Source of the DNA: a virus | Strand: one strand, 5' to 3' | DNA: 27,425 bases | IMG/VR virus record: IMGVR_UViG_3300010211_000045 | Coordinates: 1 to 27,425 of that record | Part shown: in pieces, positions 8,128 through 11,179 of the stretch | Numbering within the stretch: position 1 is the first letter of the stretch | Layout of the letters: every line of letters starts with the position of its first letter | Notes under the pieces: model-generated | Told to the model about the DNA's origin: nothing | Database searches by the model: none | The model's input: only the letters and a program-made list of their open reading frames with translations | Translations under genes and position numbers: made by a program

Positions 8128-9159
8128 ATGGCTCTGACTGGCGCACGGGCGGAGTCTGCCCAAACCCCCCTTTCCCTGTCCGATCTCAACACAAATGCCG
8201 GCGACCCGTGCATCCTAGACGTCAGGGTAGCTGAACGCCTGGGCTTTGAACGCCCACGCGTCATCCGCGAATTGATCGAACGGAACCGCGAAGAACTGGA
8301 GACCTATGGAGAGGTTCGCCGTACGGCACGGCAAACCTCTGTCAAGGGCGGCCGGCCCACAGAAGAATTTTGGCTCAACGAAGGCCAGACACTCCTGGTG
8401 TGCATGCTGTCGCGCACACCCCAGGCCGCGCGGGTCCGCCGCGAGGTGATCGCCGTGTTCATGGCGTGGCGCCGGGGCGCCGTTGACGCCCCCTCCGCCG
8501 ACCTGCGCGCTCGCGTGGCGCGGCTGGAACAGCGCGAAGACCGCTTCCTGACCATCATCGAACGTCTGAGCAGCCGGTCGGACGCCGCCACGCGCCCCCA
8601 GCGTCCGGCATCGCCGCCGTCGCCCACCCGCACGGCGCCCCTACTCGCCCCTGCCTCGTCCACCCCAACATCACCCGCGCCAACTTCCCCCGCCCGCACA
8701 TCAAAAACCCTGCCGCGCCTGTCCGGGCCGCCGGGGCTTGACGATGACACGCGGGCCTTCATCCGCCGCCGCACCCTGGAATTGGTGGCTGACGCCAAGG
8801 TCGAGGAAACCGGTGTCGGCACCCGACAGTCCTGGATGGCCACCATTCAGGCCCGCGTGGATGCGGAAAGGGCCGCAACCGCCGACGGCGACGGCGACGG
8901 CGACGGCGACGCTTGGGGCGTGGGCGCCTTCCTGGCCGCCCGCACGACGCAGGACGCCGGCGCGCGCACCCAGGCTGATGTTCTGTACGCGGCCTATGCA
9001 GCTTGGCACAGGCCGCAGATCGGCGGCACGCCGGCCACTCGCGCCCGGTTCGGACGGGTTCTAACCGCGCGTGGCATCCCGAAGGAAAAGGAAGGTCGGA
9101 TCTATTACCGGGTGCGCCTGATCACCGAGGAAAGGGCCCCGCGCCATGGCAACGCCTGA
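8128..9159 (+). CDS. Antirepressor/Rha-like phage regulatory protein with D5-type C-terminal domain
   Basis: 343-aa protein. The N-terminal part (about 25-118) has the phage regulatory pattern of Rha/antirepressor-like proteins: ILDVRVAERLGFERPRVIRE, the FWLNEGQTLLVCMLSRTPQA block and VIAVFMAWRRG. A coiled stretch (about 124-150) and a long Pro/Ser/Thr linker (about 155-200) follow. The C-terminal domain (about 265-332) resembles the end of D5/P4-type primases and is shared with the next two genes. An Asp-Gly run (253-261) is encoded by a GACGGC tandem repeat. The start at 8128 follows CAGGAG. It overlaps the primase-helicase by 14 bases. The likely role is antagonising the repressor or steering early development; DNA binding at the replication region is also possible. 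Confidence 0.7.
   Translation: MALTGARAESAQTPLSLSDLNTNAGDPCILDVRVAERLGFERPRVIRELIERNREELETYGEVRRTARQTSVKGGRPTEEFWLNEGQTLLVCMLSRTPQAARVRREVIAVFMAWRRGAVDAPSADLRARVARLEQREDRFLTIIERLSSRSDAATRPQRPASPPSPTRTAPLLAPASSTPTSPAPTSPARTSKTLPRLSGPPGLDDDTRAFIRRRTLELVADAKVEETGVGTRQSWMATIQARVDAERAATADGDGDGDGDAWGVGAFLAARTTQDAGARTQADVLYAAYAAWHRPQIGGTPATRARFGRVLTARGIPKEKEGRIYYRVRLITEERAPRHGNA
8884..8910 (+). repeat. GACGGC hexanucleotide tandem repeat inside the antirepressor-like gene
   Basis: Four and a half perfect copies of GACGGC encode alternating Asp-Gly in the linker just before the C-terminal domain. Length changes would be in frame and would only alter the linker. Confidence 0.8.
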
Positions 9160-10792
9160 TCGAACGCCAGCGCCGCCCAGGACTGCGGACGCCGTCGCCG
9201 CCGAGGCCCCCAACGCATCGAGCGCGGAGCAAAAAATCCGCGACGCAGCGGCGGCGGCCGAAGTGGTGGACTTCAGCGACTACCAGTCGGACGCCCAGAC
9301 CGGCGGCGGGAACGACCTGCTGCATCGCTGCTCCCGGCTGCCGCAGAACGACACCGGCAACGCCGCGCGGCTCAAGCTGCGCTTCGGGCACCGGCTGATC
9401 TGGGTCGAGGGCCTGGGCTGGCTGGCCTGGGTGGGCACGCACTGGAGCGCCACGGACGGCGACCGTTTGGCCACCACCTGGGCGCAGCGTGTCGCCGCCC
9501 TGATCCGCAAGGAAGCCCGCCGGTTCGAAGAAGCCGGGCCGCAGCTGGGCGAGGACGACAAGGCGTTCGAAAAGCGCGTCTCCAGCCGTATGGCGTGGTC
9601 CGTGGCCTCCGGCATGTGGCCGCGCACCAAGGCCATGCTGGACGCCGCCGCGCCCCATTTGTCCGTCTCCGTGGACCGCCTCGACGCCCGGCCGGATCTG
9701 TTCAACGTGGCCAACGGCACGCTGGAACTCTCGACCGCCGACGTCGGCGACACTCTTCCGGAGGGCGTGTGGACCTGCCGCGAACACCGGCCGGAGGACT
9801 ATCTGACGCGCCTGTCGCCGGTGGAATACAACCCCGAGGCGACGGCCCACCGCTGGCGCCGCTTCGTGGCGGAAACGCACCCGGACGAGGAACAGCGGCT
9901 CTATATCCAGCGCGCCGCCGGCTACACCCTGACCGGCTGGACGCGCGAGGAAAAGGTGTTCCTGCAATACGGTGAGGGCTCGAACGGCAAGAGCCTGTTC
10001 ATGGAGCTTCTATCCGAAGTCATGGGCAGTTATGCCGTCGCGGTCCCGTTCGAGACCTTCCTGACCGACGATCACCGCACCGGTGGACAGGCCACGCCGG
10101 ACCTGATCCGCCTGCCCGGACGGCGGTTGGCCCGGATCAGCGAACCGGAGGGCTCGGCGACGTTCTCCGAGGCCATGGTCAAGCGTGTGACCGGCACCGA
10201 CAAGATGCAGGCCCGGGCGCTGTACGGCTCCCAGGTCGAGTTCCGGCCGAGCTTCAAGCTCTGGGCCAGCTTCAACAAGAAGCCGAAGGTGCGCGGTCAG
10301 GATCACGGCATCTGGCGCCGGATCGATCTGGTCGGCTGGGTGCGCACGTTCGTCGACCCATGGGAGCGCGACAAGTACCCGGATGCCCCGCTGAAGGATA
10401 AGGGGTTGATGGACGCTCTACGGGGCGAGTTGCCCGGGGTGCTCAACTGGCTGCTGGAGGGGTATCGGGAGTGGGGGCGCAATGGGCTCGCCACGCCCGA
10501 CTGTGTGCGCGCCCTGACCCAGGAGTACCGCCAGGATAGCAACCCGCTCGGGCAATTCCTGGAGGGCAGTTGCCGCGTCGGGTCCGGCTGGACCCAGGCC
10601 GCCCGGCTCTACAAGGCCTATTCCGCGTGGTGCCGCATGGCCGCCGTCGATCCGCTGTCGCAAACCGCGTTCGGGCGCGGCCTGCGGGATATGGGGATCG
10701 ACAAAGACAAGATCGGCACCATCCACTGGAACGTCGAGATCCTGGACGGCGATTTGCTCGCCGATGCCGCCGCCGGATACGGCGATTTTTGA
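9146..10792 (+). CDS. D5/P4-type primase-helicase (SF3 helicase)
   Basis: 548-aa replication protein. The D5_N-like region (about 75-265) precedes an SF3 AAA+ helicase. Walker A is GEGSNGKS (276-283, Lys282). The Walker B/B' region is around RRLARISEPE (326-335). The sensor segment is KLWASFNKKPKV (371-382, Asn377). The arginine finger is in DHGIWRRIDL (Arg391 or Arg392). The C-terminal winged-helix-like domain (about 466-532) probably recognises DNA. No AEP primase domain is seen at the N terminus, so the upstream Toprim protein probably supplies priming. The start at 9146 overlaps the preceding stop by 14 bases. It unwinds the phage origin and drives phage DNA replication. Confidence 0.92.
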   Translation: MATPDRTPAPPRTADAVAAEAPNASSAEQKIRDAAAAAEVVDFSDYQSDAQTGGGNDLLHRCSRLPQNDTGNAARLKLRFGHRLIWVEGLGWLAWVGTHWSATDGDRLATTWAQRVAALIRKEARRFEEAGPQLGEDDKAFEKRVSSRMAWSVASGMWPRTKAMLDAAAPHLSVSVDRLDARPDLFNVANGTLELSTADVGDTLPEGVWTCREHRPEDYLTRLSPVEYNPEATAHRWRRFVAETHPDEEQRLYIQRAAGYTLTGWTREEKVFLQYGEGSNGKSLFMELLSEVMGSYAVAVPFETFLTDDHRTGGQATPDLIRLPGRRLARISEPEGSATFSEAMVKRVTGTDKMQARALYGSQVEFRPSFKLWASFNKKPKVRGQDHGIWRRIDLVGWVRTFVDPWERDKYPDAPLKDKGLMDALRGELPGVLNWLLEGYREWGRNGLATPDCVRALTQEYRQDSNPLGQFLEGSCRVGSGWTQAARLYKAYSAWCRMAAVDPLSQTAFGRGLRDMGIDKDKIGTIHWNVEILDGDLLADAAAGYGDF

Positions 10793-10807
10793 GGGAGGGA
10801 GACCAAA

Positions 10808-11179
10808 ATGAAGGATATGAAGCGGATTTCTGCGCTTGAGGCCCGTATTGCGGACCTGGAGCGCGAAGTTGCGGAAATAAAGGCGTCTCTTGGGAAACCG
10901 CCACCCTTGGCGAACGGACCAAAGCGCTTCCGTACCGACAATGATGCTGGCGAGGTTCGGGCGTTTCTCGACGCATGCACAGTATCTGAGCCAAATGGTC
11001 GGGTTGATGGCGCGCGCCTTTACGGTGCGTATTGTGATTGGTGTGTGCGGGCCGAAGTGATGCCGGCGCTAAGCCAAACCGCCTTTGGGCGGCGCCTTGG
11101 TGATCTGGGTGTCCCGAAAGAAAAGTACGGCCGGGTGTTCTATCTGGGCATCTGCCTGTGCGCAGAAGCGTGCGAATGA
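10808..11179 (+). CDS. Small coiled-coil protein with D5-type C-terminal DNA-binding-like domain
   Basis: 123-aa protein. Residues 7-28 form a short coiled coil (ISALEARIADLEREVAEIKA), suggesting dimerisation. Residues about 48-113 match the C-terminal domain of the preceding primase-helicase: RAFLDAC, then ARLYGAYCDWC, LSQTAFGRRLGDLGV and PKEKYGRVFY. The protein therefore looks like the DNA-recognition domain of the helicase set free with its own dimerisation helix. It starts 15 bases after the helicase stop, with GGGAGGGAG as ribosome site. Base composition is less GC-rich than its neighbours, hinting at separate acquisition. Likely roles are binding the same DNA site as a replication partner or regulator; these are inference. 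Confidence 0.7.
   Translation: MKDMKRISALEARIADLEREVAEIKASLGKPPPLANGPKRFRTDNDAGEVRAFLDACTVSEPNGRVDGARLYGAYCDWCVRAEVMPALSQTAFGRRLGDLGVPKEKYGRVFYLGICLCAEACE

Follow-up and report, generated by a model that had tools for sequence, protein, structure and literature searches.

The alpha protein of P4 carries out origin binding, assembly and DNA opening (PMC4234260), and the copy number of P4 is controlled by Cnr (PMC8628076). Among proteins of the D5 family, the ASFV primase C962R has a tail that has been likened to the P4 domain and to RFX1 (PMC10516667), and RFX1 is also the best match, though a weak one, of the C-terminal domain of vaccinia D5 (PMC9611036). RepR' of pIGRK is a shortened relative of the initiator RepR that is produced from the same locus and opposes it (PMC6854812). 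In the ICP1 nuclease Odn, a RepA-type domain gives iteron-dependent activity (PMC8263062).

We analyzed a 27,425-bp virus record (IMGVR_UViG_3300010211_000045; G000 in our collection), referred to below as the window, in which three successive genes on the plus strand encode proteins A, B and C (Table 1). The three open reading frames, and the motifs quoted for them in a first-pass annotation, were found at the positions given there. The gene for B begins within the end of the gene for A, with an overlap of 14 nt, and the gene for C begins 15 nt past the end of B, with its own ATG preceded by the purine-rich stretch GAGGGAGGGAG. No sigma-70 promoters were found in a scan of positions 7700–11600. 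Upstream of these genes, a CHC2 zinc finger and a Toprim_3 domain (the DnaG-type primase half) make up a gene of their own at 5817–7109, apart from helicase B. Between this primase gene and A, on the minus strand at 7127–7900, lies a HicA/HicB-like toxin-antitoxin pair (HicA, E 4e-5; HicB-like, E 2e-4; both under the curated cut-offs), and a 16-bp direct repeat, CGAACTTTTTTGTTCG, found at 7816 and 7849, may be the operator of this pair.

Table 1. Features of the A-B-C locus, in coordinates of the window.
Feature	Position	Strand	Description or basis
Protein A, 343 aa	8128..9159	+	ORF; antirepressor-type (Rha/Bro-N-like) N-terminus, linkers, C-terminal D5-type winged helix
Rha/Bro-N-like N-terminal domain of A, aa 32-112	8221..8463	+	Pfam and PHROG profile matches
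Winged helix of A, aa 265-332	8920..9123	+	tblastn, Smith-Waterman, model (pLDDT 80), RFX5/ASFV primase neighbours
Protein B, 548 aa	9146..10792	+	D5_N, SF3 helicase and C-terminal winged helix
Winged-helix (putative origin-binding) domain of B, aa 463-532	10532..10741	+	Pox_D5, tblastn
Protein C, 123 aa	10808..11179	+	ORF; coiled-coil helix and winged helix
N-terminal helix of C, aa 2-27	10811..10888	+	Model; heptads I7 L10 I14 L17 V21 I24 L28
Winged helix of C, aa 46-117	10943..11158	+	Model (pLDDT 88); recognition helix aa 90-99, wing aa 104-117
Iteron cluster, 12 copies of AACCYTCC (<=1 mismatch), both orientations	11200..11442		Just past C
Imperfect palindrome TATGTG...CACATA	11302..11323		Between iteron arrays; largely conserved in L009 and L010

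Profile matches place B as a D5-type helicase. It contains a D5_N domain (PF08706, E 1.8e-25), and its SF3/DUF5906 ATPase core, with the Walker A sequence GEGSNGKS, is covered by a match to phrog_1156 (DNA primase) that extends over aa 36–522 (E 5e-122); the score against DUF5906 itself, 25.8 bits, is slightly below the cut-off of 27.6. The N-terminal part of A matched the PHROG anti-repressor Ant (E 5e-7), and in Pfam it gave sub-threshold matches to Phage_pRha (E 2e-4, 22.2 bits against a cut-off of 29.9) and Bro-N (15.3 bits against 25.6). The linkers that join this part of A to the winged helix consist of a proline-rich portion and the sequence DGDGDGD; at the DNA level, a run of GGCGAC repeats at 8886–8912 gives a DGDGDGDGD linker immediately before the winged helix. 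The heptad pattern in the N-terminal helix of C makes dimerization of this protein probable.

The first-pass annotation had proposed that A, B and C end in the same domain, and the comparisons agree on a single homologous C-terminal domain, whether made by Smith-Waterman alignment, tblastn, PHROG profile or predicted fold. Identities between the domains are 31/64 for C and B, 30/67 for C and A, and 27/70 for A and B, with Smith-Waterman z values of 22, 19 and 13, respectively, against 1000 shuffles. The domain pairs scored 95–127, compared to 56 or less for the best other open reading frame of the window. When C was searched by tblastn against the entire record, the only matches were C itself, B at 10532–10729 (E 1e-12, 48%) and A at 8899–9111 (E 2e-10, 40%). 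Positions of approximately 737–832 in the phrog_1156 primase profile were matched by B (8e-14), by C (6e-9) and by the C-terminal piece of A (1e-5). The Pfam family Pox_D5 (cut-off 21.4) was matched by the isolated domain of B at 22.0 bits, with whole B and C falling under the cut-off, and gave no Pfam match in A; membership of the A domain is for this reason based on PHROGs, direct comparisons and fold.

The predicted structures support a common fold. AlphaFold models of C and of the A domain both have the element order H-S-H-H-S-S, and RFX5, RFX1 and the C962R tail of the ASFV primase are among the best structural neighbours of both models. Compared to individual structures, the C model gave a Z of 10.0 with RFX5, 9.2 with the ASFV PrimPol and 8.6 with the P4 origin-binding domain 1KA8 (rmsd 2.6 over 75 residues). 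By their model neighbours, RFX and the ASFV primase for both and 1KA8 for C, the domains of A and C are winged helices rather than unrelated folds, and the B domain is assigned to the same fold by its sequence similarity to C. The DNA-recognition nature that had been ascribed to the domain is in keeping with this result, the fold being a DNA-binding one to which the P4 origin-binding domain belongs. Given these fold matches, and the iterons found behind C, behind the relatives of B, and behind D5 helicases generally, the best reading of the shared domain is as the winged helix with which D5/P4-type primase-helicases bind the origin.

The repeats that had been noted at 11198–11433 are a real iteron cluster, kept behind B in its relatives. 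Six of the seven exact copies of AACCYTCC in the window are found at 11200–11410 (1.2 expected), and when up to one mismatch is allowed the cluster contains 12 copies, and no other stretch of equal length has more than 5. The array extends into the 5' end of a gene at 11392–12042. This gene has no Pfam match, and similar genes also follow the origin region of L009, RR1-A, L034, L037 and L073.

AACCYTCC also follows the helicases of four other elements. Two of these, L009 and L010, have helicases that are 76% and 70% identical to B, and there the iterons follow the helicase immediately, are laid out in a similar way and flank the palindrome; in the other two, L074 and L073, the helicases are approximately 40% and 37% identical to B and TGGAGGGT iterons are likewise found downstream. 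An 8-mer repeated at least 4 times within 700 bp downstream was present at 28 of 49 D5 helicases, compared to 66 of 1310 control windows, and the iteron sequence varies between helicase groups. Across the D5 loci L005, L009–L036 and L072–L083, each group has its own iteron type just downstream, the types including TGGAGGGT, GGACAGCA, GGACAGAT, TAGGGACG, GACAGTTG, TGTGACGC and others. The crr iterons of P4 occupy the equivalent place, behind alpha. Because clusters follow the helicases and crr is likewise placed, the D5-type winged helix likely reads adjacent iterons, and it is highly probable that B binds the AACCYTCC iterons at 11200–11442. The helicase loci gathered here provide material for tracing the choice of DNA site to particular residues of the D5-type winged helix, and from them its reading code might be derived. 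A repeat scan found no iteron cluster near the A promoter or elsewhere in the window, and this lends no support to the earlier suggestion that shared sites link lytic control to origin use; given the absence of a cluster elsewhere, any target in common would lie in the origin region and at the start of the 11392 gene, not at a known lytic promoter.

The further proposal that all three proteins read the same DNA sites holds better for C than for A. The recognition helix LSQTAFGR is common to C and B letter for letter, and the match of C to B ranks first among the 49 helicases. The recognition helix of A reads ATRARFGRVL, compared to LSQTAFGRGL in B, and A resembles B and C in the wing only, the wing of A ranking B third of 49. 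We also compared accessory domains with resident and other helicases in a surface test, with the N-terminal half, the recognition helix and the wing scored separately. In a first set of 8 accessory proteins, similarity of the wing to that of the resident helicase was far above chance (P < 5e-5; P 0.004 when the window and an obvious duplicate were left out), and the N-terminal half was not matched to the resident helicase after duplicate removal. In a second set of 11 new accessory proteins with a resident helicase, the P value for the wing was 0.24, or 0.10 without near-duplicates. A rule that accessory domains track the wing of their own helicase, positive in the first eight proteins, was not replicated in the eleven and is not established, because this repeat was not significant. 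The identity of the recognition helices suggests that B and C likely share a target, and C probably binds the same iterons as B. Binding of these iterons by A is a more doubtful matter, and we regard it as possible but somewhat against the balance of the evidence.

When the triplet was sought in other genomes, regulator-borne and free forms of the domain were found to recur, but a trio with the same partners was not found. Bro-N regulators that end in a D5-type winged helix are present in about ten phages or prophages (RR1-A, L034, L037, L073, L128–L132 and L134), the Bro-N matches of the L034, L037 and L073 fusions having E values of 1e-18 or better. In Rhizobium phage RR1-A, the Bro-N antirepressor with its terminal winged helix sits between the helicase and the iterons. 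L027, L028 and L030 encode helicases near-identical to that of RR1-A, each followed immediately by the same iterons, which argues that the regulator gene was probably inserted in RR1-A. An accessory gene is thus found between helicase and iterons in both cases, C in the window and the regulator in RR1-A, and relatives that lack these genes have the iterons directly behind the helicase.

Free copies of the domain were of two kinds. The 90-aa protein of G287 is 61% identical to the domain of its own helicase, and the two are sisters in the tree (100/100); on these grounds it is a recent copy of the end of that helicase. Free copies of approximately 140 aa in G056, G807, G826 and G817 consist of the regulator-type linker and the domain, without Bro-N. 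The related prophages G056, G807 and G826 also encode a third carrier, with the domain towards its N-terminal end, such that each has three carriers, and in G056 a broken helicase piece is found near the free copy. The winged helix was also observed at or close to the N-terminus of proteins in L238 (10220–10924), L239 (8877–9470), L241 (7028–8035) and L072 (7754–8713), and in these proteins a conserved part of approximately 110 aa follows the domain. In L214 (6748–8454, minus strand), a winged helix is found in a putative frame that is also membrane-protein-like and adjoins a D5 helicase.

Matches of the C model among predicted viral structures (BFVD) included Bro-N, T5orf172 and N1R/p28 proteins of Bodo saltans virus, a giant virus, and of an entomopoxvirus, and the fold was also found there on several free proteins of 90–112 aa. 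Its presence on regulators, free proteins and helicases of varied elements suggests that the winged helix is a travelling module. Neither L009 nor L010 has C, and in L010 A too is missing from beside B; the L009 record starts inside the operon, and the comparison of upstream genes covers L010. These absences suggest that A and C are dispensable for an AACCYTCC-type origin.

With C alone as the query, no relatives were found in IMG/VR; among the domains compared, C comes closest to that of the L074 helicase. Third-position GC is 0.585 in C, compared to 0.849 in the B domain, and the tree leaves the order of A, B and C among themselves without resolution. We also considered that C is a recent copy of the end of B; this was ruled out by third-position GC and by branch length. 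Because of the difference in third-position GC and the closest relative being in L074, acquisition of C appears more likely than a fresh copying from B.

We propose an explanation of the locus in which B carries an origin-binding domain, C is a free brake, and A is a regulator with a third copy of the domain; taken as a whole, we give it about an even chance of being correct. B would dock by its winged helix on the iterons, assemble, open the DNA and start replication there. C would be a free reading head on a coiled-coil dimerization helix that occupies or bridges the iterons of B, limiting the loading of B and damping initiation once copies and C are plentiful; perhaps it also represses the gene that starts among the iterons. 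The role of C as a replication brake is plausible, with slightly under an even chance of being right. Earlier cases in which a spare reading head exerts control are RepR/RepR' (PMC6854812) and Odn (PMC8263062). A would join an antirepressor-type N-terminal domain to the third copy and in this way bring a regulatory head to origin-type sites, or alternatively it would pair with one of the other two proteins. If B and C share a target, this would be a simple route to replication control for phages and satellites. The initiator's own reading head would, if the explanation is true, be reused as a free brake and as the anchor of a regulator, and this would explain some of the unnamed 90–150 aa proteins beside phage primases. 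A broader proposal, that alphaproteobacterial phages repeatedly copy or acquire the helicase origin-binding domain onto a regulator and a free dimerizing protein, and that these reading heads compete on one iteron array to set replication start, shut-off and gene control, seems to us rather unlikely.

A substantial, although minority, possibility is that the domains have the same fold and other targets, with A and perhaps C reading operators unlike the iterons of B, in the phage or the host, as in the domain-swapping Bro-type regulators. The divergent recognition helix of A would be expected from this, as would the lack of an iteron cluster near the A promoter and the non-significant surface test with eleven proteins; proteins of the Bro network swap DNA-binding domains (PMC10111431), and the fold occurs on regulators of the giant virus and entomopoxvirus as well. 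What such a reading accommodates less readily is that C retains the recognition helix of B, that the A gene overlaps the B gene, and that regulator copies often adjoin the helicase and iterons. It is improbable that A and C are instead weapons or shields against satellites or rival phages that bind a competitor's origin of the same iteron type. ICP1 Odn acts in this manner on PLE (PMC8263062), and several different elements do share one iteron type, but C has no nuclease or other effector part and the genes for A and C lie in the replication operon.

The domain may also be mainly a module for protein-protein or general DNA contact, by which A and C pair with the B domain and spoil or steer its hexamer without reading DNA, comparable to the action of P4 Cnr on alpha. 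We consider this unlikely: Cnr has no sequence relation to the domain and the iterons are kept beside the helicase, even though C has a predicted coiled coil and cnr adjoins alpha in P4. The paper on the P4 origin-binding domain, to go by its title as cited in PMC10516667 and PMC4234260, reportedly concerns regulation through homo- and heterodimerization of winged-helix proteins, which also favors pairing. That C is what remains of the 3' end of some other gene for a helicase or regulator, its frame still open by chance, is very improbable. Such a remnant could be missing from L009 and L010 and differ in base make-up as C does, and the broken helicase piece of G056 is a possible example; yet C starts at its own ATG behind the purine-rich stretch, its heptads are intact and its domain is modelled with confidence, and free copies recur in G287, G807, G826, G817 and G056.

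Returning to the proposed explanation, with an origin-binding helicase, a free brake and a regulator, its parts can be compared to known systems. The P4 alpha origin-binding domain has a winged-helix fold like that of C, and the type I crr/ori of P4 consists of short iterons, some of them 9 bp apart, that come in two orientations immediately after the helicase gene, as found here; the iteron sequence of P4 is other than that of the window. The window differs from P4 alpha in having primase and helicase on two genes and in encoding two further proteins that carry the domain. Cnr, like C, is a small protein encoded beside a P4-type helicase, although its gene is upstream of alpha and C is downstream of B. 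Identity of C with Cnr (DUF5375) was ruled out on sequence (hhalign probability 0.1%), and the parallel would be functional, not sequence-based. RepR' resembles C as a shortened initiator relative at the same locus, and differs in that C has a gene to itself, a predicted coiled coil of its own and a putative function.

Vaccinia D5 and ASFV C962R have the D5_N and SF3 core as in B, and the tail of C962R is like C. In the D5 family viruses the domain has been described on the helicase, and the literature found mentions no free or regulator-borne copies beside it. Nor did that literature, whose scope leaves out Iyer et al. 2002 on the shuffling of viral regulator domains, describe a Bro-N/D5-winged-helix fusion. 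The domain, the regulators and the origin type are all known, and what is new is their recurring combination, undescribed in the literature found. A and its analogues follow the design of the Bro network, a Bro-N or Rha-type N-terminus with an exchanged C-terminal domain (PMC10111431); Pox_D5 is not among the ten Pfam domains given for this network (PMC10111431), and the exchanged part in A is the domain of the helicase.
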